Below, piece by piece: positions 748 through 32,641 of a stretch of 32,641 bases of DNA. The position numbers were made by a program, and so were the translations under genes. Where the stretch lies: IMG/VR virus record IMGVR_UViG_3300046821_000458, positions 1-32,641 of that record; one strand, 5' to 3'. This DNA comes from a virus. Below the pieces are notes generated by a model. The model saw nothing but the letters and a program-made list of their open reading frames with translations. It was not told where the DNA came from and did no database searches. Within the stretch, counting starts at the first letter, position 1, and each line of letters begins with the position of its first letter.

Positions 748-757
748 CAATCGCTCC

Positions 758-4969: not shown

Positions 4970-5459
4970 TGGTCATCATCTCGGTCAGATAGTTCTTTTG
5001 CATAATATCGGGAACGGTTAGCACGGCCTCCACGGTTCTGTCGGTGGCGACCGGCGCGGTTACTGTCATATCACACGGAGATACTTGCAAAGGCACTGCC
5101 AAGTTATCATCGCGATATGAGCGCACAACAGCATAAACCGGGGTGCGACTCAGGGCAGCCAGCTCAAGCGGGGCGGTTAATTCACCCGTAACGTTATCAA
5201 TGCGGATTCGCACTGATGGTGTAGCAGCAATCTCAATTCCGCCCTCGACGATTTCAAGCGGCAGTCCGATGCACAGTACATCTTGCCCAGCATGACGCGA
5301 CGCGGTGGATTCGATCCGCACCGTCACATCCGCCCAATTTGCGACACAAAATACCGATGAATCCCAATCCGCGTGCCACAACTCCAGCACGTACAGCACC
5401 ACGCCGCCAGCGCACGCGGCGTGCGCCTCCAACGCTGCTTGCGTCCAGACATCACTCAT
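4947..5459 (-). CDS. Tail-tip protein, DUF1833-like (gpL position)
   Basis: A 170-residue protein at the place where lambda has gpL, between the gpM-position gene and the NlpC/P60 peptidase. The N-terminal half, with YVLELWHADWDSSVFCVANW, recalls the DUF1833 family of phage tail-tip proteins. The remainder alternates beta-type segments. A CPC motif lies at the extreme C-terminus; whether it binds metal, as the iron-sulfur cluster of gpL does, cannot be judged from two cysteines. The ATG overlaps the preceding stop by four bases and has a GGGGG-type ribosome-binding site. Family assignment is from memory of the pattern, not from a search. Confidence 0.6.
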   Translation of the reverse strand: MSDVWTQAALEAHAACAGGVVLYVLELWHADWDSSVFCVANWADVTVRIESTASRHAGQDVLCIGLPLEIVEGGIEIAATPSVRIRIDNVTGELTAPLELAALSRTPVYAVVRSYRDDNLAVPLQVSPCDMTVTAPVATDRTVEAVLTVPDIMQKNYLTEMMTNDTCPCV

Positions 5460-5857
5460 AATCGCCCCCTATAAACCACTTCTGCCAGCCCTGTCGACTC
5501 CAATGACATCAGTCGCGCCGACACCTTAACCATGTCTCCGCTAATCGCCTCGTGCTGTGGGTCGGGTAATATGCGCACTAATCGCGATTTACTAACACCA
5601 TCCAACCCCAGTACGGGTATTGACACTGGCTGCTCGCCACAGAGTGCGTCGAACTCATAGAACCCGAAAAACAGAGCGGCTTGTGCTCTACTCATGGTTG
5701 TTTCAACCGATAGCACACTACTGATCACGGTGCGCGTGCGGCGAATCCGCACCGCCCCAGATTCCATTTCTGATTGTATCGCCCCCGACTTCGGCTGAAT
5801 GGTTTGCGGCGTAGTGTGCCAACACGGCAGCGATGAAGGATAGATGGGGGCAGTCAT
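5456..5857 (-). CDS. Minor tail protein (gpM position)
   Basis: A 133-residue protein immediately after the tape measure gene, the position of lambda gpM. It is soluble and beta-rich with no signal or membrane segment. The stretch SGAIQSEMESGAVRIRRTRT resembles the start of minor tail proteins in B3/D3112-like phages. Its ATG overlaps the tape-measure stop (ATGA), with AAGGTGG upstream, and its own stop overlaps the next gene by four bases. The function, a baseplate or distal-tail component, is inferred from position only. Confidence 0.55.
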   Translation of the reverse strand: MTAPIYPSSLPCWHTTPQTIQPKSGAIQSEMESGAVRIRRTRTVISSVLSVETTMSRAQAALFFGFYEFDALCGEQPVSIPVLGLDGVSKSRLVRILPDPQHEAISGDMVKVSARLMSLESTGLAEVVYRGRL

Positions 5858-8800: not shown

Positions 8801-9984
8801 GATGCCTGCGCACTCAATGCAACTGTTTGCGCGGATAATGCCGCAGTGGCTTCAGCCGCCGCAATTGTTGCCGCTTGTTGCGCTGGCAGCAGGGTAGTTT
8901 GCACCGCGCGCAACCTTGCCATTCCAGTCGCCGCCGCAACCGCCGCTTCAGCTTCGCGCAGCAACATCGCGGCGTGGATTGCGCGGGCATCTGCCGCAAC
9001 CGCCTCAGCTTGTGCCGTTTGCACTGCCGCCGCCATTTCCGCCGTCGCACGGGCGCGAGTGGAAGCTGTCGCCGCAAGGTTCGCGCCTGCATAACTTGCC
9101 AGCGCACCAACCCCACGACCCGCATACAATGTAAATACCGTGCCCGCCGCAACCTCCAGCACTTGCATGTTGTTTGCCAACACTTGCACGCCGGATAACA
9201 CACCACCACCAAAAGCATTAACCAGTTCAGCTCCCGCTACCGCCGCTTGATTTTTAACACCCGTCAGTGCAGACTGAATATCAGATAGATTTTTTGCGGC
9301 ATCGGAAAGAACCTTGTTTTGGTCATCCGTAATGTATGCGCCGGACGCTTTGGCAATGCGGTCAATCTCTTTGAGTTTCGCCGCATTGTTGTCGAGGTAT
9401 GGCAACAGCTTTGATGCGTCATCCGCCAAACCTTCAAGGAGGAATATTTTTTCGCCCTGAGTGATACCTTTGATGTTATTGAGGGCTTCGCCGACCTTGA
9501 GGATTTGGTTTGCGGGGTCAAGCGCGGCAATCTCTTTGATTTGGTCGGGCGAAAGACCTGCCCGATTAAAAAAATCAAGGGCTTCACCGCCGCCAGTCGT
9601 CGCGAACTCAGCGATTTTTTCGGCGAGATCCTTGAATTGGTCGGCGACCTCGACGCCAGCCTGCTTGCCAACCAATCCCCATAGCTGTAGGTTGCCGCGC
9701 GATACCAGCAGTGATTGATTGAGCTGATTGATCTCTGTGTTGTACTGGATTACGTCATTAGTTGCGGTCGCCCACACACCCGCAGTGAGCGCACCGGCAA
9801 CGCCAGCAATGACCTCTTTAACCGAGCCAAAAGACCGCCCCAACCCCTCATTAGCATCTTCAAGGTTACGATCAACCTCAACACCTGCCGCGCCAAAGCG
9901 ACGAATACCACCTTCCGCATCAGCAATGCTGGTGCGGAATTGTTGTGAATTGAGCTGGAGAAGAGCCTCAAGTCGCATTGTCAT
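5854..9984 (-). CDS. Tail tape measure protein with internal lysozyme domain
   Basis: At 1376 residues this is the longest gene in the window and sets tail length. It has long Ala/Glu/Lys/Gln-rich helical stretches (about 310-400, 450-620, 960-1100), Gly/Ala-rich hydrophobic segments near 270-300 and 400-430, and the C-terminal hallmark EAGYPEAVMPMPRGG of lambda-type tape measures. Residues about 770-895 form an embedded phage-tail-lysozyme-like domain: ANLKKESEF with a candidate catalytic Glu, GAIGDSGKAYGVAQWHGDRQ and QYYERPANK. That domain would open the cell wall as the tail tube penetrates. The ATG at 9984 follows AGGAGG at good spacing. The gene follows the frameshifted chaperone, as in lambda. 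Confidence 0.95.
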   Translation of the reverse strand: MTMRLEALLQLNSQQFRTSIADAEGGIRRFGAAGVEVDRNLEDANEGLGRSFGSVKEVIAGVAGALTAGVWATATNDVIQYNTEINQLNQSLLVSRGNLQLWGLVGKQAGVEVADQFKDLAEKIAEFATTGGGEALDFFNRAGLSPDQIKEIAALDPANQILKVGEALNNIKGITQGEKIFLLEGLADDASKLLPYLDNNAAKLKEIDRIAKASGAYITDDQNKVLSDAAKNLSDIQSALTGVKNQAAVAGAELVNAFGGGVLSGVQVLANNMQVLEVAAGTVFTLYAGRGVGALASYAGANLAATASTRARATAEMAAAVQTAQAEAVAADARAIHAAMLLREAEAAVAAATGMARLRAVQTTLLPAQQAATIAAAEATAALSAQTVALSAQASASSVAAGAARGLGAALAFVGGPFGALAIAIAGSVYFLKQLQDEQEKSKDAIRLSSGEWVKNNEITAEAKKLSAEYATASADRRKEIEAETKSLQSNTTEALKNAEAKLTQLKAELERAQSSFKNQSIQSEYDSNGEYIGGEYTYAQAGTTVLQSHSKAIDEQVKKIAELKKQKVESATVSANLGKVYADEATATKEQYFNQEAVTKALTQTTEAETKAVEASKVHTQALQGVIEGLMRQRIAIEQGELAAGYFDDRLKGLSKSEAELNAAGKQTNSYLEARQKLMDDQAAQTKSIAAQYLMELDKAGVSPSALDGIKQISPETEKAVKAARDLQAAMDAASQSATNVATAASKINVPSSSISAKPLGGAEAGNAQQVVGILQKLGESYQNAIAIAANLKKESEFRAGAIGDSGKAYGVAQWHGDRQAVFADVFGKDIKSSSLEEQLRFVVYELRRGNERGAGRQLDAADTVQAKAAAVSQYYERPANKLGEMRERAAIAAQIEAATKGTAVASVSVADSHAKSIPALDQINVKTVATKQAVIAYGGEFDKTRVTTQQIGDLLEGKLQLESDKLIQSAKDHAAAVTQTAYAYRAAEVAAMDLGSARAANILQEEAAANFAEQQAALQKERAGIGANPVQQYRSGLQDQVLDQPQVDILTNIKIGNVFEQLQHDTFVARQEVVLTTDRYRLWQLTVQDGLTPALAQLQLQQERELEHLKANKEAAQGYANIIRSDATSAFQNMADTGIPLLDKVLDKLIESITTSQQFSGIFNSIGGGLSGASGGLLSLFGFRDGGHFDSSGIRAYAAGDTFHNQVLSSPTFFHTPDRQLAVAAEAGYPEAVMPMPRGGILAQTPTGIIDLPVTRVASGQLAVDARQLGGINAYANGGTFQYAPTSAQVPTANGNSVGVSVSVAPRIEIINNTGSNVAVSKQEQATDGDGNAVMRVWLEQVKSAVKSDIAGEISNRRGAVYNALRTTQGGNYA

Positions 9985-9995
9985 TACTTCTCCTC

Positions 9996-10343
9996 CTATT
10001 GTCTTGCTTGGGTGGCCCCATCCGCAAACTGCCTGAACTCTCTGTACCTGAGCCTGAACTCGTGCGAATCAAAGATGTGTGCAATGTAATTAATGGCAGT
10101 AGCAGCGGAAAAATCCCCGCATAACTCATTGGCAATACGCCAATATTCGACGTTATACGGGTGGAGCTTGAAAACCTCAGGACGTGATTCAACGATCCGC
10201 CCCGTGATGCGCGCCCAATACGCCGCCTTTTCGGGGCTTAAGCTGGGGATTCCACTGTTTGCGCCGCCGGGTGCGCGTCCTGTTGCCCAGACTCGTCCGG
10301 CTTCAATGCGTTTTTTTCGATAACCGCCACGCCAACGCCGCAC
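9996..10343 (-). CDS. Tail assembly chaperone extension, made by -1 frameshift
   Basis: This open frame is read as the C-terminal part of a longer tail chaperone, the equivalent of lambda gpGT, rather than as an independent gene. Only the part after the slippery site, from 10310, is used. It adds 104 residues, starting RIEAGRVWATG, to the first 130 residues of the upstream chaperone and gives a fusion of about 234 residues. The region contains an aromatic segment (AAYWARITGRIVES, YNVEYWRIANELCG) typical of T domains that bind the tail tube subunit. No ribosome-binding site suits an independent start at 10343. The stop lies just before the tape-measure ribosome-binding site. Confidence 0.8.
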   Translation of the reverse strand: MRRWRGGYRKKRIEAGRVWATGRAPGGANSGIPSLSPEKAAYWARITGRIVESRPEVFKLHPYNVEYWRIANELCGDFSAATAINYIAHIFDSHEFRLRYREFRQFADGATQARQ

Positions 10344-10699
10344 AGCGAATAGAACAATGCGAACAAATAGTGGTTATGCTTCAGTAGCAGCACGGCATCG
10401 CCATCCGTCCACCCCGTCTTGTCTGTTGAGACAAGGAACTTATGCACAGCAACCTTCATGCTTTCACGAAGGCTGGACCACGCCTGACGCGCAGCCAATG
10501 CCGTGTCAAAGACAGCATTGTTACGGCGAGCAAGATAATCATCAATTTCACAACGCAGTGTTTCCAGCATATCCAGCTCATCATCATCTGGCGTGCGCCA
10601 CGTTGCTGTAAATGCATCAATAATCTGCTTATTGAGGCCACGAACTTCCACTTGCAGATCAATTTCAGCAGGGGATTCAATTACGATTTCAATAGCCAT
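10238..10699 (-). CDS. Tail assembly chaperone (gpG-like)
   Basis: A 153-residue protein between the tail tube and tape measure genes, the position of lambda gpG. It begins MAIEIVIESPAEIDLQVEVR, and a helical core follows. Such chaperones coat the tape measure during tail assembly and are absent from virions. The ATG at 10699 is chosen over the upstream in-frame GTG at 10714 because it makes a TAATG stop/start overlap with the tube gene, as at several other junctions here, and has GGTGG seven bases upstream. Ribosomes that slip back one base at 10310-10316 continue into the second frame. Confidence 0.8.
   Translation of the reverse strand: MAIEIVIESPAEIDLQVEVRGLNKQIIDAFTATWRTPDDDELDMLETLRCEIDDYLARRNNAVFDTALAARQAWSSLRESMKVAVHKFLVSTDKTGWTDGDAVLLLKHNHYLFALFYSLCGVGVAVIEKNALKPDESGQQDAHPAAQTVESPA
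10310..10316 (-). other. Programmed -1 ribosomal frameshift site (A AAA AAC)
   Basis: On the minus strand the chaperone frame reads GAA AAA AAC GCA. This is the classical slippery heptamer A AAA AAC in the correct phase (codons 128-130). A slip of one base backward continues as CGC ATT GAA GCC, which is exactly the frame open down to 9996. About 10 bases downstream a GCCGG/CCGGC pair could form a stimulatory hairpin. The location, between tube and tape measure genes, is where nearly all long-tailed phages have this device. Confidence 0.88.
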
Positions 10700-11712
10700 T
10701 ATTTTTCCACCCACGAGAATCCATCAACGATGTCGCACTTGAGCTTCATACCAACCAGCTTATTCGGCAGTACAGCTGGTGTCGGCTCATACAGTTGCGC
10801 CTCGTTAACGCCAATAACAACCTTCGACCCCGCGCTCGTGCCAATCTCAAACTCTAACGCAACAGTTGGTGTATTGGCGGAACGATCACCAGCGATGTAC
10901 GGGTTGAAACCATTCGCCGCATCCATCCAATCTGGCATGGCAATGAACAACTCTAAAGTGCCGGATGCATCGGTATCCATCGGCTCGGCGCGATCAGGTA
11001 ACGCGCTACAGCCGGTTTGCATGTACTTAACATCCCAACCAAAGCAATTACTACCTGTCAGTGATTGCAAGCAAACTGAACGAGCGCCTATCTTCTTGAT
11101 AGAGATGGCGTTAGCCTTAACAATGTCAAACAGGTTTGTTAATTGCGCCCCATAACCCGGAGCTAAGCGTGCTACACGATCAGGATGCGCATACCGACCC
11201 ACACCCTTGAAGCTAACGGTAAACTCCTTGCCAATTTCTACGCTAAACCCAAACTGCCCCCGACAGCCGACGGCAAGGTGTCGATAATCATAACTACCGC
11301 CACTAACCGGCTGACGCATCTCCATTGTTAACGCATCAAATGCATCACGAGTGTCGCGCATGTACGTAACAGACGTATCTGCCACTGTTACTTTTTTTGC
11401 ACCACAACCGAGCAATATTGCAGATAGCGGACTTGGGCTACCAGCAGCACCGGAGCTTGAGTACGGGAATTCCGCAGCAACATCCCAGTACACCAACGCC
11501 TGCCGGTTAATAACATCATTCGGGCGCAATGCAGTGCGACGATCCAGCTTTACAACCTCCTCCACTTTTTTAAAGGCGACCGAGCTGGCGAACAATGCCG
11601 CCGTCGATGGGAGGGCAACAGCGGCTTGCTCCGTAGCTTCAACACCCACAAAAATAGACTCGCCATAGTCCGACACCTCAACCGTAGCTGGCGTATTAGG
11701 TGGTATTGGCAT
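10699..11712 (-). CDS. Major tail tube protein
   Basis: A 337-residue tail tube subunit. Support comes from its place between the small head-tail genes and the frameshifted chaperones, its beta-rich composition, and similarity in style to tail proteins of B3-type Mu-like siphophages. Residues about 95-105 (LSAILLGCGAKKV) match the '...LL.acG' pattern seen in tube proteins of this group. The C-terminal part (after ~290) could be an extra surface domain. The ATG overlaps the preceding stop as TAATG, with AGGAG eight bases upstream. No sheath gene is present, so the tail is non-contractile. Confidence 0.8.
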   Translation of the reverse strand: MPIPPNTPATVEVSDYGESIFVGVEATEQAAVALPSTAALFASSVAFKKVEEVVKLDRRTALRPNDVINRQALVYWDVAAEFPYSSSGAAGSPSPLSAILLGCGAKKVTVADTSVTYMRDTRDAFDALTMEMRQPVSGGSYDYRHLAVGCRGQFGFSVEIGKEFTVSFKGVGRYAHPDRVARLAPGYGAQLTNLFDIVKANAISIKKIGARSVCLQSLTGSNCFGWDVKYMQTGCSALPDRAEPMDTDASGTLELFIAMPDWMDAANGFNPYIAGDRSANTPTVALEFEIGTSAGSKVVIGVNEAQLYEPTPAVLPNKLVGMKLKCDIVDGFSWVEK

Positions 11713-11876
11713 TATTTACTCTCCTGATTTTTAGTAGCTTGCGCACCATCCGTTGACGGTGGCGCAACAGGCGACGGGGCAGGCATGGACGCGGGCACAG
11801 GGATGGGCGTAGTTGGGCGTTCGGTTTTTGCAACCAGCACCTCAACTCCCTTTTTATCAACTTGCCACTGGGACAT
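11712..11876 (-). CDS. Small Pro/Ala-rich tail-region protein
   Basis: A 54-residue protein: an N-terminal part MSQWQVDKKGVEVLVAKTER, then a low-complexity Pro/Ala/Ser/Thr tail. It occupies the gp38 position of Mu-like phages, where small poorly conserved genes are common. GAGG followed by seven bases precedes the ATG at 11876, and the TAA overlaps the tube gene start as TAATG. Both junctions support a translated gene. The function is unknown. Confidence 0.75.
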   Translation of the reverse strand: MSQWQVDKKGVEVLVAKTERPTTPIPVPASMPAPSPVAPPSTDGAQATKNQESK

Positions 11877-11885
11877 GGGAACTCC

Positions 11886-12314
11886 TCATCTGTTTGAACA
11901 TGCTCCGTAATTCGAGATGACGCGCGATGTTGTTTCAAAAATAACGTCGAACTGCCAAAGACCAGACTCTTGGCTCACAAACGAGTCACCAACAACCCAC
12001 AGCTCAGTCCACTTTTCTCCGGGGCAGAACCCATTGATGGCATCAACAATGGCATCCTTGTAGTCGTAACTCACGTGCTGACTGCTAAGGTTGCGCAAAT
12101 AAAGTCGCACCCCAACCACTGCGGCGCGCCGCGCCACACCACCACATGCGGGCGTATAGCGACTGGACGGGTGATACACCAGCATTGCCCCAACGGGATG
12201 ATTCAGTCGGTACGAGTCGGGATTTGCAGGAAACCGCTCACTATGCAGCCCTGGGATTAATGTCGCCAGTTGTGTGACGCACGCATCAATCACATCATCG
12301 GTTGCTGGCTGCAT
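11886..12314 (-). CDS. Mu gp37-like head-tail protein (DUF1834)
   Basis: A 142-residue protein of the DUF1834/gp37 type, probably a head-tail completion or tail terminator component. The pattern fits: an N-terminal helix (DDVIDACVTQLATLIPGL), a central beta segment VGVRLYLRNL, and a C-terminal VSQESGLWQFDVIFETTSRV as in this family. It follows the DUF1320 gene, the usual order. A 101-base gap holding two palindromes separates it from that gene, the only sizeable gap among the head-tail connector genes. Initiation at 12314 lies after GATTGAGGTGTT (GAGGTG, spacing about four). Confidence 0.75.
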   Translation of the reverse strand: MQPATDDVIDACVTQLATLIPGLHSERFPANPDSYRLNHPVGAMLVYHPSSRYTPACGGVARRAAVVGVRLYLRNLSSQHVSYDYKDAIVDAINGFCPGEKWTELWVVGDSFVSQESGLWQFDVIFETTSRVISNYGACSNR

Positions 12315-12336
12315 AACACCTCAATCCTGTGGTTTG

Positions 12337-12359
12337 AAATCCCCGCCAGGCGGGGATTT
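12337..12359. repeat. Palindromic element A, intergenic copy
   Basis: A perfect inverted repeat with 11-base arms (AAATCCCCGCC / GGCGGGGATTT) around one central base. Read on the minus strand it is identical, centre included, to the copy at 21352-21374 inside the DUF3102 gene. It lies in the 101-base gap between the DUF1320 and DUF1834 genes, next to palindrome B. It could act as a transcript hairpin or terminator, or be a small mobile palindrome. Confidence 0.85.
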
Positions 12360-12369
12360 GCTGGCTCTG

Positions 12370-12392
12370 AAAAAACCGTCATGACGGTTTTA
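12370..12392. repeat. Palindromic element B, intergenic copy (terminator-like)
   Basis: The core 12372-12391 is a perfect 20-base palindrome, AAAACCGTCATGACGGTTTT. On the minus strand it is followed by further T residues and then CAGA, as is the related copy at 21543-21566. An A-run, a GC stem and a T-run look like a bidirectional intrinsic terminator, yet the element lies inside the late operon. A third small dyad, TACGCC/GGCGTA, is at 12398-12411. Confidence 0.8.
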
Positions 12393-12415
12393 TTGGTTAC
12401 GCCACGGCGTAGTCG

Positions 12416-12853
12416 TCAGTATTGGCCCAATGTGTCACCGCCAAATAGTCGAGTGCGGGCATTGGTGCGGATAGGTGACTCTCCAATATTGACCGCACTA
12501 GTTGCAGCAATATCGAGATTCTCCTTGCCGTCACGTATATCCGTGAGCGTTTTCAATGCATTGCCGTAAGTGCGTGTAACAGCCTCCGGCAATTCCTGCC
12601 CCTCCGGTCGCCGCGCATACAAATAATGACGCGCAATGGCAACTGCAATATCAACCAAGGCATCCGTTGCATCCTGCAACGGTAATTCGTAACGCCCGGA
12701 AATTTTTCGATTAATTTCCCGCGCGGCGTATGCAATCGCATCATTCACGACGGTTGCATTAATCGCCGTTGCTGCTGGGTCATCATTGCTCAACCAAATC
12801 AGCGTTTGACCGGGCATGGCACGTTGCAGATCAGTGACGGTGCAATAAGCCAT
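12416..12853 (-). CDS. Mu gp36-like head-tail connector (DUF1320)
   Basis: A 145-residue DUF1320 protein, the Mu gp36 type, thought to be a head-tail adaptor. The N-terminus MAYCTVTDLQRAMPGQTLIWLSND matches the family start ('MaY.t..dL...'), and the middle AREINRKISGRYELPL and AIARHYLYARR are the conserved helices of this connector fold. The ATG overlaps the stop of the preceding small gene as TAATG. It follows capsid and small-gene order as in Mu-like phages. Confidence 0.88.
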   Translation of the reverse strand: MAYCTVTDLQRAMPGQTLIWLSNDDPAATAINATVVNDAIAYAAREINRKISGRYELPLQDATDALVDIAVAIARHYLYARRPEGQELPEAVTRTYGNALKTLTDIRDGKENLDIAATSAVNIGESPIRTNARTRLFGGDTLGQY

Positions 12854-12996
12854 TACTTAACTTCCTTGACTACCTCAATCAAGCCAGCATCCACCAGCTC
12901 CTGAGCATCACTTTCTTTCAATTCAATGACATCGCCAGGTTTCGCAATAACGCCGGGTTTAACCGAAATCGGCGTATCTTTTACTTGGTATTTCAT
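12853..12996 (-). CDS. Small head-region protein
   Basis: A 47-residue protein (MKYQVKDTPISVKPGVIAK..., ending in EVVKEVK) between the major capsid and DUF1320 genes. Small genes of this kind (Mu gp35 position) are common in Mu-like phages, and 'PGDVIEL...AQELVDAGLIE' is the typical pattern, which suggests a small capsid- or connector-associated protein. The ATG at 12996 has AGGTG just upstream, and the TAA overlaps the next ATG. Reality is well supported; the role is not. Confidence 0.75.
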   Translation of the reverse strand: MKYQVKDTPISVKPGVIAKPGDVIELKESDAQELVDAGLIEVVKEVK

Positions 12997-13003
12997 GGTG
13001 CAC

Positions 13004-13942
13004 CTACACTGGGGTTTGGATTAAATAGCCAGCAACAATACCCGTCAGATTGGGTTTGCGCTCATAAGTAACGGGGTAGATCCATGATTTTGTTGGATTA
13101 TCGTAATAGGGCATTTCAGCAATCGGGTTGCCTTCCATTACATAGGTATAACCAAATGATGGATTGCCCACCTCACGATCACCTACTTGATCCTGCGGAA
13201 CGTAAGCCATCACACAGTTATTACCCCAGATGTCAGTAGCGACACCAGCATCCGTCCAGTAGACAGCCCTCCCAACCTTAACCTTTTCAATACTAAAAAA
13301 TACCGCCAACAGATCTTCCGTGATCGAACCACCGTTAGTGTATTTGAACTGATCACGCACGAAGGGGTTTTGGCGCAAAGCATTAAAAACGCCCGGTGAG
13401 ATAATCATGGTATTTGGGTATGCGCCGCACTGCGACCGCACCGCTTCGCGCCCAGCATCCACTGCGATGCGCGGATCAACCGTTCCCACACTCCAGCGTG
13501 CGCCAGCCGCCAATGCAACCTTATTAGTTGCTGGATAGCTATTGGTGTCCAATGCGGTTGCTGCCTGATCCACTTCCAGCTTCAACTGTAATGCACGCAT
13601 GGTTTTCGTCACAGCACCACGACCTAGGTCAATACCGGGCATGGTTTCGGCTGCATCACGCTGATGCTCACGCGGTACAACACCTTCCAGGGAGTGCGCT
13701 TCGAGCGCATAAGGAACACCCAAATAACCATACTGGACACGTCGAGTGGTGCTACCGGGCGAGCGAGCGGACGAGTACAGCTGAAACGCTTCACGACCAA
13801 ACTGCACTACCTTGCCGCCACTGACACGCACTGGAACAAGTGGAAACAAGTTATTACCAACAAACTCTTGATTAGAGTAACCCTGCACCACCGTTGTTAA
13901 GATGGGATCGACAACGCGAGCACCTGCATTCGAGATAGACAT
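13004..13942 (-). CDS. Major capsid protein
   Basis: A 312-residue major head subunit. It starts MSISNAGARVVDPILTTVVQGYSN, includes NNLFPLVPVRVSGGKVVQFG and ends with a WIYPVTYERKPNLTG region. This pattern belongs to the capsid proteins of transposable and other siphophages with the HK97-type fold. It lies downstream of the protease/scaffold and decoration-like genes and upstream of the connectors, the normal order. AAGGA lies seven bases before the ATG. No long N-terminal scaffold extension is present, fitting separate scaffold sequence in the protease gene. Confidence 0.88.
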   Translation of the reverse strand: MSISNAGARVVDPILTTVVQGYSNQEFVGNNLFPLVPVRVSGGKVVQFGREAFQLYSSARSPGSTTRRVQYGYLGVPYALEAHSLEGVVPREHQRDAAETMPGIDLGRGAVTKTMRALQLKLEVDQAATALDTNSYPATNKVALAAGARWSVGTVDPRIAVDAGREAVRSQCGAYPNTMIISPGVFNALRQNPFVRDQFKYTNGGSITEDLLAVFFSIEKVKVGRAVYWTDAGVATDIWGNNCVMAYVPQDQVGDREVGNPSFGYTYVMEGNPIAEMPYYDNPTKSWIYPVTYERKPNLTGIVAGYLIQTPV

Positions 13943-13962
13943 GACAATTCCTTATTAACGTA

Positions 13963-14304
13963 TTAACGCTTATTCAGCAGTACTTCAATGATGTCACCTG
14001 CTGCCGTTGCCGCTTGTAGCGCACGCCCAACCGGATTGGTTGTGCCGGTTGTTGATACCCGCCCAGACGCGTCGGAATAAACCAAAACCCCCGTCGCAAT
14101 CGCACCACCAACTTCAATCGCTTCCGTACCTTCGGTGGAGATATCTACATACTCACCGACAGGGGCACTACGACGCGCAACCCCAAGCCACACTGCATCA
14201 GCGGCGGCAACTTGCGCACCAGTAAAATCAACCAACCGATATTCAGTGATTGCAGATGTCGCCTTGACTGGTAAAATCAACAAAGGGACTGATTGCTTAC
14301 TCAT
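13963..14304 (-). CDS. Capsid decoration-like protein (DUF2190-like)
   Basis: A 113-residue beta-rich protein between protease and major capsid genes, a common place for head-decoration proteins. Repeated Gly/Val turns (VGVARRSAPVGEYVDIST..., AIATGVLVYSDASGRVSTTG..., GRALQAATAAGDIIEVLL) match the DUF2190 small beta fold. Such proteins bind the capsid surface and stabilise it. The ATG overlaps the protease stop as TAATG, with GGAG upstream. The family name is a pattern judgement. Confidence 0.72.
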   Translation of the reverse strand: MSKQSVPLLILPVKATSAITEYRLVDFTGAQVAAADAVWLGVARRSAPVGEYVDISTEGTEAIEVGGAIATGVLVYSDASGRVSTTGTTNPVGRALQAATAAGDIIEVLLNKR

Positions 14305-15404
14305 TACTTCTCCACGGCTTTCACAGCCTGCTCATACGTAACACCATTGGCTTTTTGATACGCCAATGCCTGTGCATGTACCGCATTACGCGATTGATCA
14401 ATGACATACCCAATTGGGGCGGAAAAATCAGCCGTACCAATGTCGCCGTGCGCCTTACCCTTGGTAGCGTACTCGCCAAATTCAATCACCACGGGATGGT
14501 CTTTGAGGTAGTCGCGGAATGCGCTACCCAGGGATTGCTTAGCATCACCCTCGCCAAATTCCAAACTCGTATCGGCTTCAGAGAAGCTTAAAAAGGCCAG
14601 CACAACAGGTTTATGCTTGGGTAGTAAACGCCCCTCAGCAACCAAACCGTCGGCAAAATCACTGTGCTCTTTTGCGCGAGCAACGGCCTTGGCTGCCAGC
14701 TCGGCCTGCTTTGCTTGCGCCAATTGTTGTTTGAGTTGCTGATTTTCAGCCACCAATGCCGCTTCTTGTTCTGGCTTCACTGTCTTCTCCGCATAATTAA
14801 CAGGGGGTAATTCGTCCGGCGGTTCTTCGCGCATAGCGGACTGCATCAAACCATCCACTGTATAACTGGGAATAACCTGATCCGCCGCTTCTTTGCCGAA
14901 CTTGGTCAATAACCATTCCCGCAGGTTGCGCCACAACCCGGCCTGCTGCATATCGTCATAATCCGCAAAATCCAGCGTAACGATTTGCTCACCATCAGTA
15001 TCGGCAAATTCAACCGGGAGTAAGCCTTTAACAGCGGGCGGTTGCGCACCAAGAAAACCAACATGGCGCAAATAATAAGTGCCTGGTACAGGATTTGACG
15101 GTGAGGATGGCAAGTAAAATGATGCAGACACCTTCTTCCATTGCCCTGCATCCACACCCTCTGCAAATGCCGGATTGATTTGAGTGGGTGTTACATACAG
15201 ATCACCATCACTAAAGAAGATGGATTTAACCCAGCCATACGCGGGCGAATCGTGTTTTGGATGCCCGATAACCAGCGGGGCTTCATGCCTAGCAGGATCA
15301 TAAACGGCGGCTGTTGCAGCAAGATCGACATCGGTAATTGTCACCATTGCACCAGAAGAATCTTGGCGCGTGCCGGATTTGAAAATATGTATCTTTTTGC
15401 TCAT
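14304..15404 (-). CDS. Phage protease / scaffold protein (Mu gpI-like)
   Basis: A 366-residue head maturation protease with a C-terminal scaffold part, as in Mu genes I and Z. The N-terminal ~150 residues contain YDPARHEAPLVIGHPKHDSPAYGWV and YYLRHVGFLGAQPPAVKGL, both characteristic of the Mu-like protease family. After about residue 205 the sequence turns into a charged coiled coil (EQEAALVAENQQLKQQLAQAK...), then a tail likely to contact the capsid protein. In Mu the scaffold is also made separately from an internal start. No internal Met here has a convincing ribosome-binding site. Confidence 0.88.
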   Translation of the reverse strand: MSKKIHIFKSGTRQDSSGAMVTITDVDLAATAAVYDPARHEAPLVIGHPKHDSPAYGWVKSIFFSDGDLYVTPTQINPAFAEGVDAGQWKKVSASFYLPSSPSNPVPGTYYLRHVGFLGAQPPAVKGLLPVEFADTDGEQIVTLDFADYDDMQQAGLWRNLREWLLTKFGKEAADQVIPSYTVDGLMQSAMREEPPDELPPVNYAEKTVKPEQEAALVAENQQLKQQLAQAKQAELAAKAVARAKEHSDFADGLVAEGRLLPKHKPVVLAFLSFSEADTSLEFGEGDAKQSLGSAFRDYLKDHPVVIEFGEYATKGKAHGDIGTADFSAPIGYVIDQSRNAVHAQALAYQKANGVTYEQAVKAVEK

Positions 15405-15509
15405 GCAACACCAGTACTAACTTGATGTTCACATCATAAAATGCGGAAAGAAGGATGCGGTGAATGAGAAAAATCAGAGATGGTTAAATCAACCAAAGAA
15501 GCACTTGAA
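15405..15509. other. Gap inside head operon
   Basis: A 105-base gap between virion morphogenesis and protease genes, long for this compact operon. It has no credible ORF. Two weak dyads are visible: GATGTTCACATC near 15424-15435 and TGGTT-AAATC-AACCA at 15481-15495. On the minus strand the second is followed by TCTCTGATTTTT, so it might be a weak terminator or processing hairpin. No promoter is evident. Confidence 0.4.
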
Positions 15510-15983
15510 TCAGACCTGCATTATATCGGAAACATAATCATCTAGAAGATCGTTAATGGATGCGATGGCGACAGGTGTTAATTCCCCACTAGGCAAGATT
15601 GGCATGTATGGACGCGCCGGAATAGCGACCAATCCACCGCGCCCCGCCTTGCCACCAAATTGATGAATGGCGGCATACGGCACACCAGCAACACCAATAT
15701 CCATAAAGCCATTGCCTGCACGCACCGTCACACCTCGCGCCAACGCGCCGGATATTTGCAGGATTTTACCAGGCCAAGTACCCGCCTTGGTGCGCTGCTT
15801 AATGGTTGATTGGGACAATACAGGCCACTCAGGCTGACCTTCGCGAGCAAAGTTACCCTCAGTTAATGCTAGTAATTCCATGCCAATGCCGCGCATTAAC
15901 GGCGTAGTATCAGCCAGCTCCTGCCCAATGCGCAACAGCTTAGCCTGCACTGCCGCACTGTCAATCTTTACAATATCACTCAT
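15510..15983 (-). CDS. Virion morphogenesis protein (Mu gpG-like)
   Basis: A 157-residue protein of the phage virion morphogenesis family (Mu gpG / P2 gpS type), needed for head-tail completion. Signature parts are LLALTEGNFAREGQPEWPVLSQSTIKQR near residues 38-65, LQISGALARGVTVRAG, and VPYAAIHQFGGKAGRGGLVAIPARPYMPI at about 100-130. It follows the Mu F-like gene with a TAATG overlap, the standard order in Mu-like phages. Confidence 0.93.
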   Translation of the reverse strand: MSDIVKIDSAAVQAKLLRIGQELADTTPLMRGIGMELLALTEGNFAREGQPEWPVLSQSTIKQRTKAGTWPGKILQISGALARGVTVRAGNGFMDIGVAGVPYAAIHQFGGKAGRGGLVAIPARPYMPILPSGELTPVAIASINDLLDDYVSDIMQV

Positions 15984-16921
15984 TAGCTACCCACCTGCTT
16001 AGCCGCAGCACGCGATAAGTAATCAGCCAATGCCGATAAATCCGTAATACCACTGGTTGCATCAATACCGCGCGATTTTAGCAGGCGGTTAGCAGATCGT
16101 TCGCCCAATAGGCGTTTTGCCCGCACTACCAGCACATCATGTATCCATCCCACACCTATTGGTGCAGCATTAAAGCCTGCATCCGGCGCGAAGAAGACCG
16201 TCTTTCCAGATTCACCCACAACCTTCATGCCGGTGCGCTTGGCAGTCAGCACCTCGCCTGTGCGCTTATCCACACCAGACTCAACCGTTATGGTCTTGAG
16301 CTTGCCCGCGCTTGATTCCACGTCCACACCGCTGCGTCGCACTGCCGATCTCGATAATGGCTTGACGCGACAACGACAATTGAATCCATTGGGTGGGAAT
16401 CCCGTGATCCAAAACGGATCAGTTGCCAGCAATACCCTGCCGTTCATAGCGCGATGACTAGGGCGCGTGCGCCCATCCATGACCGCCACATATTCCCAAT
16501 AAGGGTGTGTTGCAGTGCTATCCTGCATCTCTTGCATTCGCGCCGCCATGTACGCGGACTGCATGTTGGTTTGAAAAATAGTGCGCAGCCTCTGCAAGCT
16601 ACCTTCCTGCACCACTTCCGCGCCACCATCACCCCCCACCACAACCTTCTTCCCCCACCACCCCTTGCTTTGCAAGATGGGGGTTAGTTCATCAGCAAAT
16701 TGCTTGAATGCTTTCCCCTCTTGCTTCGCACTCAGAAGTGCATCCTTTATATCTTGCAGTACATCCAAGCGCACCACCTTGGCAACTGTAAACGCGCGCT
16801 GATGCGCATCATCCAGCATCTCCTGCCAATTCCACGTTATCGCGAAACCCTTTGATTTCGCATAAGCGATTGCTGCCTCAGGCTTCATGCCAAAAATAAT
16901 AGATAAATCATCAGGCAGCAT
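15983..16921 (-). CDS. Head morphogenesis protein (Mu gpF-like)
   Basis: A 312-residue minor head protein of the Mu F family. The conserved C-terminal half of the domain is clear: THPYWEYVAVMDGRTRPSHRAMNG (about residues 137-160) and WITGFPPNGFNCRCRV (about 172-187), with the CRC motif typical of this family. The N-terminal region is helical. The family is thought to act inside the head near the portal and may be ejected with DNA. It overlaps the portal gene by 11 bases; GGGTG lies about eight bases before the ATG. Confidence 0.93.
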   Translation of the reverse strand: MLPDDLSIIFGMKPEAAIAYAKSKGFAITWNWQEMLDDAHQRAFTVAKVVRLDVLQDIKDALLSAKQEGKAFKQFADELTPILQSKGWWGKKVVVGGDGGAEVVQEGSLQRLRTIFQTNMQSAYMAARMQEMQDSTATHPYWEYVAVMDGRTRPSHRAMNGRVLLATDPFWITGFPPNGFNCRCRVKPLSRSAVRRSGVDVESSAGKLKTITVESGVDKRTGEVLTAKRTGMKVVGESGKTVFFAPDAGFNAAPIGVGWIHDVLVVRAKRLLGERSANRLLKSRGIDATSGITDLSALADYLSRAAAKQVGS

Positions 16922-18341
16922 CTAATTCACCCTTTGCCGTCAGCCGACCAATCACCCCCGCCGCAAACAGCATGTCACCCAGCTTCTCAGCAAGTGACTG
17001 CATATCAAGGTTTGGGTAAGCGTCAGCCAACAACCCCAACATCACTTCATAGCTATCGGCCCGTGATAGCTGTGACAGTAAATCCATCAGCATGACATCA
17101 GCCTGTTTTTGCAAATTAATACCCTCTACCGCACCATCAATAGCCGACTGATCCGCAAATTCGGCAGGATCAGCTTCGCTAAAATTGGCGGGGGAAGAGA
17201 GTGTATCTTGCGGTAGTAAATCCCCTTCGCGCAAACCATACGCAGACATAAAATACTGATTACTGAGCTTTGCACCAGCGTTAGAGAGTCGCTCATCACG
17301 ACCAGCCTGCATGGCATCAACCGATTCCTGATCCCATAGCTCATACACTGGACGCACTGGTACATCAAAGTTCAGATTGCAAATCCAGTCAATCACGGTA
17401 TTGATTGCCTTAGTCGCAATCTGCGCGTCACCATCACGTATGTCGCCCGCTACTGACAAGCCCGCCTGCGCACTGGCATTGGTCGAACTGGATTCAGTGG
17501 TCAAGTTACTACCCAGTAATGCCGTACTGACTTCGGCACGGCAAAACATCAGCAACCGCTCGTAATTATCAGCACTACTTGCCGTGCCGCCGGATTGCAT
17601 AATATCGATTGACGCATCGTCCGGTATGACTGCAACCGCATCCTGCACCATGTTTTCCAACTGATCTAGCAGCCGATCCGTATCACCAACCGTGGCGTGG
17701 CGGGGTTGCTTGCCGACCACGAACGGCATACCGTATTTCTCTGCAAATGTCACCCAGAACTTCAAACCACCCTTTTTGAAGGCGGTAGGCCAGAAACACA
17801 TGGACAGATCAGGGAAGCCGTAGGGATTTGCATACGTCGCATCCTGTGTCAGCAGCAGGAATTTACGATCCGGCAATGCCTCGCCCACCAAAGGGGCAGA
17901 CTTGGAGCGAAAGCGCAATTGATTATCCGCATCAAACACAAACCACTCTGGTGGTTTAGCTATGGCGGCGGTCGGCACAATAAACGAACCCACCTTGCCC
18001 CACACCAGCTCGACAGGCTGATAACCATACAAGCACGCATCCATTGCAGACTGGATGATGGATGCAATATCACAGTCATTTAAGATTGCCCGGATATTAT
18101 TAGTGATTCGACCGGACGCAGCACTGTTGCGAATGCCGCGCTCCAAACCCAATACGGCAGCGCGGCGACGGCGAATTGCACCACCGATAAGCGGGTCGGA
18201 GCGAAGATCACGATAAGTCGTTATATCCCGCCCCATCGCCTTCAGCACTGGATCGGGGTTTGGTAGCCACCCCATGTACGACCATGCGTCTAAAAGTGCT
18301 CGTGGGCGAGTAGCAATGTGCTGCGATAAATTTGCATCCAT
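16911..18341 (-). CDS. Portal protein (DUF935, Mu gp29-like)
   Basis: A 476-residue portal protein forming the ring through which DNA enters and leaves the head. Family features are DPVLKAMGRDITTYRDLRSDPLIGGAIRRRRAAVLGLERGI (residues 30-72), GYQPVELVWGKVG (about 110-122) and GMPFVVGKQP (about 205-215). AGGA lies eight bases before the ATG. In typical Mu-like phages the large terminase gene is directly upstream. Here the upstream neighbours are a small ORF, a lipoprotein and the repressor, and the terminase is on the other strand at the far end of the window. Confidence 0.95.
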   Translation of the reverse strand: MDANLSQHIATRPRALLDAWSYMGWLPNPDPVLKAMGRDITTYRDLRSDPLIGGAIRRRRAAVLGLERGIRNSAASGRITNNIRAILNDCDIASIIQSAMDACLYGYQPVELVWGKVGSFIVPTAAIAKPPEWFVFDADNQLRFRSKSAPLVGEALPDRKFLLLTQDATYANPYGFPDLSMCFWPTAFKKGGLKFWVTFAEKYGMPFVVGKQPRHATVGDTDRLLDQLENMVQDAVAVIPDDASIDIMQSGGTASSADNYERLLMFCRAEVSTALLGSNLTTESSSTNASAQAGLSVAGDIRDGDAQIATKAINTVIDWICNLNFDVPVRPVYELWDQESVDAMQAGRDERLSNAGAKLSNQYFMSAYGLREGDLLPQDTLSSPANFSEADPAEFADQSAIDGAVEGINLQKQADVMLMDLLSQLSRADSYEVMLGLLADAYPNLDMQSLAEKLGDMLFAAGVIGRLTAKGELDAA

Positions 18342-28718: not shown

Positions 28719-29549
28719 ATGTCCCACAAAGCCTTCTTCGATGTTGTCCGCCACAAGTTCTACCCTGACGGACTAACCCAACAACAGGTTGACAACATCA
28801 ACCTGATCATTGATGCATTCGCACCATTCGACAACCCATACTGGACAGCCTACGCACTGGCGACCGCATATCACGAGACTGCCGCCACATTTGAGTCAAT
28901 TGAAGAGCACGGGAAGGGTCGTGGGCGAGCGTATGGCAAACCGGAAAACGGTAAGGTTTACTATGGACGCGGCTTCGTGCAATTGACTTGGCTGGACAAT
29001 TACGCAACCTTCGCCCGTCGCCTAAGTATTGACTTGATCAAACAGCCAGAATTGGCACTGCAAGCAGATATTGCCGTACAGATTATGGTACTGGGCATGA
29101 CTAAAGGGTTGTTCACAGGTGTTGGATTAGACGACTTCTCCCATACTGACGGCACTCTGGATTACCTGCACGCGCGGAAGGTTATCAATGGCATGGACAA
29201 GGCGGCACTGATTGCTGGATATGCTGAGCAGTTCTACGCCGCACTGACCGCACCCGATGCCACACCAGAGCCGCAACCAACGGTAGTATTACCCGTCAAC
29301 ACCCCCGCACTAACCGCACCAGAACCACAACCCGCCGCAACATTGCTACCCAACCCTTTGGTGACTGCATTCACCTCAAAGATCGTATGGGTTCAACTCG
29401 TAGGTCTGGCATCAACCATTACATCATTCTATGGCGTGGAATTAACCGCCGAACAACAAGCCACCCTTGTCAAACTAACCCTCATCATCATGACGATAGC
29501 TACAACAATCCTGCGAACCTTCTTCAACCAAGGTAAAAACCACCAATGA
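28719..29549 (+). CDS. GH19-like endolysin with C-terminal holin-like membrane domain
   Basis: A 276-residue lysis protein. Residues about 1-178 form a lysozyme/chitinase-like (GH19-type) domain: AYALATAYHETAATFE with Glu53 as candidate catalytic acid, and YYGRGFVQLTWLDNYATF (81-98). A Pro-rich linker (178-212) leads to a C-terminal segment with two hydrophobic helices (about 222-241 and 250-268), ending ILRTFFNQG. This segment looks like the small phage holin-type proteins that usually stand alone. There is no signal peptide. A typical phage endolysin of this type stops before the linker. It is the first gene after the early terminator, probably under Mor control. The stop overlaps the next ATG. 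Confidence 0.85.
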   Translation: MSHKAFFDVVRHKFYPDGLTQQQVDNINLIIDAFAPFDNPYWTAYALATAYHETAATFESIEEHGKGRGRAYGKPENGKVYYGRGFVQLTWLDNYATFARRLSIDLIKQPELALQADIAVQIMVLGMTKGLFTGVGLDDFSHTDGTLDYLHARKVINGMDKAALIAGYAEQFYAALTAPDATPEPQPTVVLPVNTPALTAPEPQPAATLLPNPLVTAFTSKIVWVQLVGLASTITSFYGVELTAEQQATLVKLTLIIMTIATTILRTFFNQGKNHQ

Positions 29550-30074: not shown

Positions 30075-30299
30075 TTGGATGATATTGATAGAGCGCAAGC
30101 AATCGAAGAAATGCAGCGCGAACAAGCAATCAAGGCAAACCACAAACCAAGCGAAGCCCCTGAATACGATGGCAGCGGCAACCGTATTTGCATTGAGTGC
30201 GGAACAATCATTCCGCCACGACGGATTGACGCAATAAATGCTGTGCGGTGCGTGGACTGCCAGCAGGCACTGGAGCAAAAACAGAGGGTGTATGCATGA
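30075..30299 (+). CDS. TraR/DksA-type zinc-finger protein
   Basis: A 74-residue protein with a four-cysteine zinc finger, CIECGTIIPPRRIDAINAVRCVDC, spacing CxxC-N17-CxxC, typical of small phage TraR/DksA-like proteins. Relatives bind the RNA polymerase secondary channel and change promoter choice. The start is TTG at 30075, with GGAT a few bases upstream; no in-frame ATG lies near. The first half is a charged helix (RAQAIEEMQREQAIKA), as in TraR. It could help shift transcription to phage promoters. Confidence 0.82.
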   Translation: MDDIDRAQAIEEMQREQAIKANHKPSEAPEYDGSGNRICIECGTIIPPRRIDAINAVRCVDCQQALEQKQRVYA

Positions 30300-30517
30300 G
30301 CGATGAAGTATTGCGAGCAATCGGCAAGCTGGAAGGCAAAGTCGATATGCTACTAGAGCAACAAAAATCAGTAAGTTCAAAGCTGGACGATCAAGACGCG
30401 CGACTGCGCGGCGTGGAAACCAAAGGGGCTGTATACGGCACAATTGGCGGTAGCGTGGTAAGCATTGGCATATCACTACTGATAGCCAGTCTCAAATCAA
30501 AAGCAGGTATGCCGTAA
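30296..30517 (+). CDS. Small coiled-coil membrane protein
   Basis: A 73-residue protein with an N-terminal coiled coil (LEGKVDMLLEQQKSVSSKLDDQDARLRGVET) and one C-terminal membrane helix (about 45-65, VYGTIGGSVVSIGISLLIASL). The layout resembles XhlA-type or DUF2730-like phage membrane proteins found in lysis or pre-terminase regions. It could be an accessory holin. The ATG overlaps the zinc-finger gene stop. Confidence 0.65.
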   Translation: MSDEVLRAIGKLEGKVDMLLEQQKSVSSKLDDQDARLRGVETKGAVYGTIGGSVVSIGISLLIASLKSKAGMP

Positions 30518-30525
30518 GGATTGAC

Positions 30526-31026
30526 ATGGCACATCCAGACGAGACCAGATTAAAGGTGAAAACCGCTTATGTGCGCGGGCGCATGACGATTGCTGACGCA
30601 GCCGCACACGCAGGCATCGCTGAGGCCACCGCCAAGGCGTGGAAGATTGCCGCCAAGAAGCTAGGGGATGACTGGGATGTTGCCCGCAATGCCGCTCGCC
30701 TTGCCGCCGGTGGATTAGGCGACATGACAATGGAAGTCATGGAAGACTTCATCCTGCAATTCAAACGCAGCATGGAAGAGTTACGCAAGGCAGACGGCAT
30801 CAGCCCAATGGATCGAGCAGAGATACTGGCGCGTCTCTCAGATTCCTACGTCAAAACCATGAAAGCCGCGTCATCCAGTAACAACAATCTGGCGCGTTTG
30901 AGTGTGGCACTGGAAGTGCTGGAGCTATTCGGGCAATTCATTCAGACCAAATACCCGCACCACGCCCCTGCATTTGTCGAGGCACTGGAGCCATTCGGGG
31001 CGGAATTGGGTAAGCACTATGGCTAA
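30526..31026 (+). CDS. DUF1804 protein, probable small terminase subunit
   Basis: A 166-residue DUF1804 protein. In Mu-like phages it lies directly before the large terminase and is taken as the small, DNA-recognising subunit. The N-terminal part has a helix-turn-helix (VRGRMTIADAAAHAGIAEATAKAWKIAAKKLGDDWD, about 15-50). The rest is helical, with the conserved DFILQFKRSMEELRK and GQFIQTKYP. The last codons overlap the large terminase start by eight bases. Confidence 0.88.
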   Translation: MAHPDETRLKVKTAYVRGRMTIADAAAHAGIAEATAKAWKIAAKKLGDDWDVARNAARLAAGGLGDMTMEVMEDFILQFKRSMEELRKADGISPMDRAEILARLSDSYVKTMKAASSSNNNLARLSVALEVLELFGQFIQTKYPHHAPAFVEALEPFGAELGKHYG

Positions 31027-32641
31027 TCGCGACATCAATCAGGACAAGTTCCAGCGCCAACTGGCACAGATGGCGGAAGGTTTCCGGCGCATCATTGAAG
31101 CGGAAGTAGACGGCTTCGCCCCCGACTCAAGCGCCCGTCAAAGCCGTATTGAACAGTGTTCAACGAGCCTTCAAGCGTTTGCCAAACTGTACTTCCCACA
31201 TTATATAAAGTATGCGCCATCTGAGTTGCACACCTATTTGTTTGAGCGCTTGCCCAAACTGGTAGACGCCCCCAAAGGCCGCCATCTGGCATTAGCCGCG
31301 CCACGGGGTGAAGCCAAGTCCACCATCGCCAGTTTGATCTTTGTGATTTGGTGCATGGTCTACGCCAAAAAGCACTACATCTGTCTGGTCATGGATAGCT
31401 TCGACCAAGCATCCGCGATGATGGAAGCGGTAAAAGCCGAACTGGAAGCCAACCCACGCTTACAGATGGACTTCCCCAAAGCCACTGGGGCGGGGCGACT
31501 GTGGCAGCAAGGCGTCATCGTCAGCGCCAATGACATCAAGCTACAGGCTTTCGGCTCCGGCAAGCGGATGCGCGGCTTACGTCACGGTCCACATCGCCCC
31601 GACCTGGTGATTGGTGACGACCTGGAAAACGACGAGAACGTCCGCAAGCCAGAGCAACGCGACAAGCTGGAAAGCTGGCTGAAAAAAGCCGTGTTACAAC
31701 TGGGTTCTGCGGATGGATCAATGGATGTAGTCATCATCGGCACGGTGCTGCATTACGATTCCCTGCTATCCCGCCTATTGCAAAACCCATTGTGGGAACA
31801 CGCCAAGTTCCAAGCCATTACGCAGTGGCCTGACAATATGTACTTATGGGACAAGTTTGAGGGCGTGCTGCTGGATCAGGGCGAAGAAGCCGCTTTGGAT
31901 TTTTACGCCAGTCGGAAAAATGAAATGGATGCCGGGGCAAGGGTGTCATGGGTAGCCGCCCGCCCACTGGTGCGACTGATGATTATCCGCGCCCGTGACG
32001 GTCATGGCGCGTTCGACTCAGAACATCAGAATGACCCTGTGTCAGGGGAAGATGCCCCCTTTGCCAACTGTATCCAGTTCTGGGTAAACCGACTGCATGA
32101 GTGGGCGTTCTTTGGGGCGTGCGACCCATCGCTAGGGAAAAACGGCAGCAGGCGCGATCCATCCGCCTTGCTGGTTGGCGGGTTCAACCGTGCGACAGGC
32201 GTGCTGGATGTGGTCGAGGCGCAAATCAAAAAGCGGGTTCCCGACCGCATCATCGAAGACATCATCAGCTTGCAGATGGAGTACATGTGTCTGGTATGGG
32301 GCGTTGAATCCGTGCAGTTTCAGGAGTTTCTACGCACCGAGCTGATCAAGTGTAGCGCTGCACGCGGCATCCCCATTCCTGCCCGTGGCATCACCCCGAA
32401 TACCGATAAGGTGTTGCGCATCGAAAGCCTACAGCCGCATGTTTCCAATGGCCTGATCCGCTTGCACCCATCACAAACCACATTACTGTCGCAGTTGCGG
32501 CACTTCCCTAAGGCCGACCATGACGATGGCCCCGATGCACTGCACATGCTATGGATGCTGGCAGTATCTGGCTCTGGGGCAATCGCAAGTCTTGCGTCAC
32601 GCCCCCGTCGCAACAGAGGTATTAATCTGGGCGGGTTCTAA
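31019..32641 (+). CDS. Terminase large subunit
   Basis: A 540-residue DNA-packaging motor. The ATPase domain has Walker A-like APRGEAKST (94-102, Lys100) and Walker B DLVIGDD (195-201). The nuclease domain has FGACDPSLG with Asp369 and DHDDGPDALHM (about 500-510) as metal-binding acidic residues. The family is the Mu gp28-type/phage terminase large subunit of about 540 residues, so the gene is complete. The start at 31019 is in the last codons of DUF1804. The usual next gene, the portal, is absent; it is on the other strand near 18341. Confidence 0.95.
   Translation: MANRDINQDKFQRQLAQMAEGFRRIIEAEVDGFAPDSSARQSRIEQCSTSLQAFAKLYFPHYIKYAPSELHTYLFERLPKLVDAPKGRHLALAAPRGEAKSTIASLIFVIWCMVYAKKHYICLVMDSFDQASAMMEAVKAELEANPRLQMDFPKATGAGRLWQQGVIVSANDIKLQAFGSGKRMRGLRHGPHRPDLVIGDDLENDENVRKPEQRDKLESWLKKAVLQLGSADGSMDVVIIGTVLHYDSLLSRLLQNPLWEHAKFQAITQWPDNMYLWDKFEGVLLDQGEEAALDFYASRKNEMDAGARVSWVAARPLVRLMIIRARDGHGAFDSEHQNDPVSGEDAPFANCIQFWVNRLHEWAFFGACDPSLGKNGSRRDPSALLVGGFNRATGVLDVVEAQIKKRVPDRIIEDIISLQMEYMCLVWGVESVQFQEFLRTELIKCSAARGIPIPARGITPNTDKVLRIESLQPHVSNGLIRLHPSQTTLLSQLRHFPKADHDDGPDALHMLWMLAVSGSGAIASLASRPRRNRGINLGGF

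Follow-up and report, generated by a model that had tools for sequence, protein, structure and literature searches.

A GH19-type endolysin of a Mu-like phage carrying a C-terminal two-helix membrane module with stand-alone holin-like relatives: a probable natural endolysin-holin fusion

The passage of a folded endolysin across the inner membrane is normally studied with the holin and the endolysin as separate proteins. As a fusion of the two fixes their ratio at 1:1 and ties the cargo to the channel, one such gene can tell large-hole from drag-through models. Does a single open reading frame of a Mu-like phage encode such a fusion? The phage is the 32,641-base virus record IMGVR_UViG_3300046821_000458, analysed over its whole length and called the window here, and its Mu-like gene content comprises a transposase region, GemA, Mor, a DUF1804 gene, TerL and a portal gene. 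A sequence-only reading had described, in the frame between Mor (28190) and the DUF1804 gene (30526), a GH19-like catalytic domain joined through a Pro-rich linker to a two-helix region resembling small stand-alone phage holins (Table 1).

Table 1. Features of the candidate fusion gene and of the genes that follow it, in window positions
Feature	Position	Strand	Remarks
Candidate endolysin-holin-module fusion gene, 276 aa	28719..29549	+	ATG start, TGA stop; one ORF
GH19-type catalytic domain, residues 1-177	28719..29249	+	Assigned by PHROG 181, profile and fold
Pro/Ala-rich linker, residues 178-211	29250..29351	+	Low-confidence coil in the model
Predicted two-helix membrane module, residues 212-276	29352..29546	+	Acidic loop, basic flanks on both sides
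Small soluble coiled-coil protein, 56 aa	29546..29716	+	ATG overlaps the lysin stop (ATGA)
One-helix protein, phrog_1103	30296..30517	+	Coil, then C-terminal TM; directly upstream of the DUF1804 gene

The layout of the window itself is split between strands, with a portal-to-tail block on the minus strand (1-18341) and TerL closing the window on the plus strand (30902-32641), and both ends fall exactly on stop codons. Two relatives (L337 and L328) have TerL, portal and MuF in that order on one strand, and a third locus (L189) has a large gene, portal and MuF on one strand; the layout of the window may reflect an inversion, an assembly join or trimming.

The catalytic part is matched by the PHROG 181 endolysin family with an E value of 2.7e-27, and the Pfam GH19 model scores the single window sequence below threshold (22.2 bits, cutoff 25.5). 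When a profile of 65 lysin sequences was run against the PDB it retrieved GH19 chitinases and phage GH19 endolysins (best E 4e-13), the SPN1S endolysin 4ok7 being matched at E 6e-10, and the phage endolysin 9eoi is also among the PDB matches of this domain. Foldseek gave 37 matches at E <= 0.001 which are GH19 chitinases or endolysins nearly throughout, the PWe2 endolysin 9ms7 reaching a TMt of 0.71 against the window model (mean pLDDT 87.4 overall and mostly 94-98 in the catalytic part). Residues E53 and E63, which we take to be the acidic catalytic residues from their role in GH19 enzymes, are invariant in 65/65 aligned lysins. In sequence, modelled fold and acidic residues the gene therefore agrees with a GH19-type phage endolysin (PHROG 181). 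Its first 100 residues hold no 19-residue segment with a hydropathy of 1.0 or more; lacking an N-terminal TM, it is not a SAR endolysin.

The C-terminal region has hydropathy peaks at residues 222-240 (1.50) and 247-265 (1.68), and AlphaFold places helices at 221-238 and 244-274, in agreement with the two membrane helices of the sequence-only reading. A wall-binding domain, which would have told against that reading, is rejected: no such match was found, and the tail is a hydrophobic hairpin instead. Across 21 copies of the module the loop is net negative in 21/21, the N-terminal flank net positive in 20/21 and the C-terminal tail in 19/21, a pattern that predicts both ends inside (N-in/C-in) and hence an enzyme that would face the cytoplasm until the membrane is breached. 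Hydropathy, model and charges together give the tail the predicted features of a class II-like holin, namely two TM helices with N-in/C-in topology. The tail belongs to no Pfam family.

As the unusual arrangement might have been produced by a sequencing error in a split gene, we looked for it in relatives. Lysins are present in 12 of the 63 Thiothrix-order genomes searched, and in four of these genomes (L168, L182, L177 and L178) a C-terminal two-helix tail lies in one frame with the lysin. The L168 protein aligns with residues 1-273 of the window protein at 43% identity, and its gene lies within a Mu-like prophage in the order Mor, fusion lysin, small coiled-coil gene, membrane and coil genes, Gp27, lipoprotein, large gene, portal, MuF. 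One further lysin, from an IMG/VR viral contig (L197), carries the same type of tail in one open frame. Because the fusion is kept in one frame in all five, an error in the window is ruled out, even though the module is indeed a separate gene in some relatives; the fusion is real and stable, and its product is one 276-aa protein.

To place this tail among others, we took 256 distinct lysins read from loci and counted hydrophobic segments by a crude hydropathy measure. A C-terminal extension with such a segment occurs in 31/256, at least one of which (L235) is a parsing error, and the module in question is on 5/256, the same five lysins named above. The tail of L231 matches the module weakly (19.9 bits), and the remaining tailed lysins have other single-helix or hairpin tails. 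Two side observations come from these loci: one genome (G003, L180/L186) encodes a 387-aa protein in which one GH19-like domain directly follows another, and short repeats that yield recurring peptides, resembling a CRISPR array, lie at L190 11048-12391, about 1.3 kb from the L182 lysin.

On profile evidence the tail is a member of a family of about 65 residues that occurs both fused to endolysins and as stand-alone genes. A profile built from six lysin tails was compared with 37,410 six-frame ORFs taken from 394 sequences; its sole non-seed match above noise (38.3 bits, E 1.9e-9; next 14.3 bits) was a separate gene, L199, located 0.8 kb 3' of a GH19 lysin that has no tail. After inclusion of this gene the search was extended to whole genomes, and 13/63 from the Thiothrix order match at E <= 0.01: four have GH19 fusions, five a GH24 lysozyme with the module, two a GH108 enzyme with the module, and two are noise (L425, L426). 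The GH24 assignment rests on L418 (Pfam PF00959, E 1e-35), to which the others are 70-100% identical in the lysozyme part; these loci (L418-L422, L428-L431) come from five Thiothrix-order genomes. For GH108 it rests on L423 (Pfam E 5e-22), with L424 assigned by similarity and its module matched at E 0.001. In alphaproteobacteria 19/385 genomes match, in 20 places, of which nine are stand-alone-like genes of about 55-90 aa (L394-L402) and one is a GH108 fusion (L404); the rest are noise (L405, L407, L409, L410, L412), a place with no ORF (L411) or unclassed (L403, L406, L408, L413). The module thus appears to be portable, being found by sequence at the C-terminus of three endolysin classes, GH19, GH24 and GH108. 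Two stand-alone proteins are longer, with an extra N-terminal part before the module (L199 5464-5841, 125 aa; L212 4769-5131, 120 aa), and both genes lie downstream of GH19 lysins.

The relationship was examined with controls. A profile of eight stand-alone genes scores the window tail at 31.4 bits, against 11.0 for the best of 200 shuffles and at most 7.2 bits for other lysin hairpins. Because these genes had been found by a profile that contained the window, a second round left it out: this windowless profile matches the window tail at 29.8 bits (E 2.4e-6 for 100,000 sequences), and a new profile made from the stand-alone genes that it recovers still does so at 25.5 bits (E 5e-5). In the opposite direction, a profile of 13 lysin tails matches the separate genes L438, L368, L337 and L212 at 21-30 bits and L328 and L378 weakly (14.6-16.3 bits), with five controls at or below 1.2 bits; the L378 gene, initially placed with the controls, reaches 33.0 bits with the stand-alone-gene profile and is counted as a member. 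Comparison of the two tail groups by hhalign (probability 92.7, E 4.4e-7) is treated as a lead only, because TM hairpins align easily, and it is the leave-out and shuffle controls that carry the claim. Module profiles support neither the phrog_1322 gene of L325 (0.8-1.1 bits) nor the tails of M4Lys and Ruegeria phage V16 as members. Among isolated phages, tblastn found no match to the window tail at E up to 10 and none to the other tails at a useful E. An initial three-sequence tail profile gave two partial matches to long frames in 369 gammaproteobacterial genomes, which were not used, and phrog_34682 stayed at noise level in the 63 Thiothrix-order genomes, touching the L182 tail at E 0.07.

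Are the stand-alone relatives holins? Several match families annotated as such: L400 (E 6e-10), L399 (E 1.4e-6) and L395 (E 2.4e-5) match phrog_34682, and L398 matches phrog_4712 (E 3.9e-6). The likeness to small holins drawn from the window alone is thereby sustained for the stand-alone members; the window tail itself finds only phrog_29088, of unknown function, as its weak best PHROG match (E 0.039), the same family that the L199 gene matches at E 1.6e-10. This weakness, like the lack of a Pfam family, counts against the holin reading of the window tail. The PHROG 34682 and 4712 proteins are, like the window tail, of about 50-65 aa with two hydrophobic helices, and share with it a pattern of SK(T/I)xW, loop and basic tail. 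They are tied to it through intermediates, "holin" is an annotation there, and they are separate genes, whereas in the window the module forms the C-terminal end of an enzyme. Being fused with an endolysin in one ORF, the window tail is not itself a stand-alone holin, although it may work like one. Genomic position speaks on both sides. Module genes follow a GH108 gene by 12 bp (L400), a Hydrolase_2 gene by 11 bp (L395) and a Peptidase_M15_3 gene by 50 bp (L397), and the phage record MW202608 has a module gene of 64 aa with an XhlA gene and a PlyB-like endolysin downstream of it. Others adjoin DnaA and AsmA genes (L398) or an FAA hydrolase gene (L399), and these non-lysin neighbours count against the holin reading.

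The window TerL was then used to compare the same slot among Mu-like phages; it retrieves 80 viral loci at 56-70% identity, 72 of them with a TerL ORF and 44 of these reaching 3.5 kb upstream. Their lysis genes vary, from a lysozyme with an Rz-like gene (L314) or an amidase (L325, L328) to a PHA02564-type enzyme with a 3-TM protein (L366) or a GH108 lysin (L368). GH19 lysins of 214 aa occur at six of the loci, with the tail in 0/6. The module stands as a gene of its own in four relatives (L368, L337, L378 and, weakly, L328), in keeping with the resemblance to stand-alone genes proposed earlier. In L368, whose TerL is 61% identical, the module ATG at 870 and the stop of the GH108 lysin at 873 form a four-base overlap, and a homologue of the 30296 protein, TerS and TerL follow. 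In L328 the module GTG at 1742 overlaps the amidase stop at 1745 (weak profile match, E 0.002-0.014), and in L337 and L378 the module gene lies between Mor and TerS. As relatives carry the module as a separate gene beside the lysin, the window gene has the look of two such neighbours merged into one.

We consider it probable (roughly 0.6) that the window gene is a natural fusion of endolysin and holin whose membrane part assists the attached enzyme in crossing the inner membrane. For membrane insertion, assembly, lesion, timing, enzyme activity and enzyme passage we infer the following course. The GH19 domain would be made in the cytoplasm and remain anchored on the inner side of the cytoplasmic membrane through the C-terminal hairpin, inserted with both ends inside. 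The protein would accumulate late in infection until its hairpins assemble in the manner of a two-helix (class II-like) holin, and this assembly would breach the membrane or destabilise it, giving the attached enzyme access to the peptidoglycan; a separate holin would be unnecessary. One difficulty for the fusion-holin reading is that an enzyme fastened to the edge of the hole it has made would not obviously get to the wall.

In line with the sequence-only reading, which saw no obvious classical holin nearby other than the one-helix protein at 30296, the 30296 ORF encodes the sole other TM protein between Mor and TerL, a stretch in which no same-strand small multi-helix membrane ORF was found. 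Across loci, the missing separate holin fails as a test of the fusion: among the 207 loci kept after simple ORF calls (those without 1.5 kb on both sides being dropped), a small neighbour with at least two TM segments occurs beside 2/10 hairpin-tailed and 52/184 tail-less lysins, which is no clear difference. The 30296 protein is a possible accessory only. Its homologues occur in 11 of the 72 loci with a TerL ORF, and as these include Mu-like relatives with other lysins it is rejected as a partner specific to the fusion. It has no PF10805 (DUF2730) match at E <= 1, and its TM is C-terminal, not N-terminal. The protein at 29546 is 60% identical over 47 aa to the product of the gene directly 3' of the fusion lysin in the L168 prophage (L189).

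A serious though distinctly less probable alternative is that the hairpin is a tether only, restraining and concentrating the endolysin at the inner face until the membrane is permeabilised by another protein, be it the 30296 protein or an unrecognised one, which would make the hairpin a C-terminal counterpart of SAR regulation. Tailed lysins do lie beside separate holin candidates, in L192 (which carries the module and has a neighbouring 3-TM protein with a sub-threshold holin match), V16 and L041 (with DUF2730), the first two of which also count against the fusion-holin reading. Phage Mu, in the available text of its report, has no holin and uses gp25 (PMC9239132), whose position the 30296 protein matches. 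Against a tether stand the relationship of the module to stand-alone genes that match holin families, the 30296 protein's lack of a DUF2730 match and its occurrence whatever the lysin type, and the failure to see a multi-TM gene in either the window or the L189 cassette. The tailed endolysin M4Lys, moreover, is described in the part of its report available as lysing E. coli without added phage proteins (PMC7143992).

It is improbable that the tail is an amphipathic or cationic extension that aids the released enzyme across the outer membrane, as in other Gram-negative endolysins: many GH19 lysins here do end in a Pro-rich linker and a short amphipathic or single hydrophobic helix, and no spanin was recognised in the window cassette, but two membrane-length hydrophobic helices with an acidic loop and homology to stand-alone membrane proteins speak against it. 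Slightly less probable still is a non-lytic secretion or domesticated wall-opening device of the kind known from holin/endolysin secretion systems, a use possibly made of the GH24 fusions, as no Mu-like neighbours were recognised in the four larger regions from their five genomes, but one at odds with a window gene that sits in a Mu-like phage between Mor and terminase genes.

Returning to the fusion reading, we tentatively extend it, as a doubtful generalisation, to a recurring self-exporting endolysin: phages would have joined a holin gene to an overlapped or adjoining endolysin gene separately for GH19, GH24 and GH108, each hairpin carrying one attached enzyme through a locally weakened membrane. 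If true, export by holins need not use a large open hole. In addition, the module provides a family to which many small phage genes lacking annotation can be assigned.

How do known systems compare? In the passages of their reports available, Siskin, Enc34 ORF39 and M4Lys share with the window an N-terminal catalytic domain, a linker and a C-terminal two-helix membrane domain, the two TMDs of Siskin being predicted N-in/C-in (PMC6498227). Hydropathy is close (M4Lys 1.33/1.57, window 1.50/1.68). However, their catalytic domain is PHA02564 (phrog_873 in M4Lys) and that of the window is GH19/PHROG 181, the M4Lys tail scores 0.9-2.2 bits with the module profiles, which does not support homology, and the passages available from the three papers do not trace the TMD to stand-alone holins (PMC6498227, PMC8943055, PMC7143992). 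According to its report, as far as available, full-length M4Lys alone lyses E. coli, removal of the TMD abolishes lysis, and the TMD alone is bacteriostatic and does not lyse (PMC7143992). The first two results are a precedent in favour of the function proposed here; by analogy the last would count against the window tail as a holin.

A natural translational holin-endolysin fusion, TpeE of Clostridium sporogenes, is described in the available part of its report with an N-terminal holin of one TM and an amphipathic helix, in a Gram-positive host and with one endolysin type (PMC9527704). By comparison with that description the holin-like part here differs in being C-terminal, of two helices and joined to three endolysin classes. 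Phage Mu, from what is available of its report, lyses with the SAR endolysin gp22 and the releasin gp25, which has one TM and whose gene lies no more than five genes from that of the endolysin (PMC9239132). Like the window, it has no recognised holin and encodes, a few genes after the endolysin, a protein with one TM; unlike it, Mu has an N-terminal SAR domain and a DUF2730 protein, whereas the window lysin has no N-terminal TM and the 30296 protein is not DUF2730. LysAP of Acidovorax phage AP1 resembles the window in its C-terminal TM, which is needed for lysis there, and differs in its GH24 domain, its single TM and the presence of a separate holin (PMC8879335, as available in part).

Other two-helix tails were seen in our searches. 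Ruegeria phage V16 (Casjensviridae, chi-like by family) encodes a GH19 lysin with two C-terminal TM helices (L007 1992-3096); its tail is outside the module family, and a Pfam Phage_holin_10 gene lies just downstream. At L041 3909-4691 a GH19 lysin bears a two-helix tail of a different type; the stretch downstream (about 1.3 kb) encodes a 2-TM protein and then, with a score above the Pfam cutoff, a member of the DUF2730 releasin family. The literature covered, mostly outside subscription journals, yielded no report of a C-terminal endolysin fusion to a module traced to stand-alone holins. C-terminal two-helix endolysins and an N-terminal holin fusion are thus known; for the fusion described here the structure is well supported, and we infer its function. 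The Enc34 authors, in the available text, thought the C-terminal TMD arrangement limited to Chivirus and its relatives (PMC8943055), whereas the fusions reported here indicate that endolysins of phages other than the chi-like ones and their relatives also bear C-terminal membrane tails.
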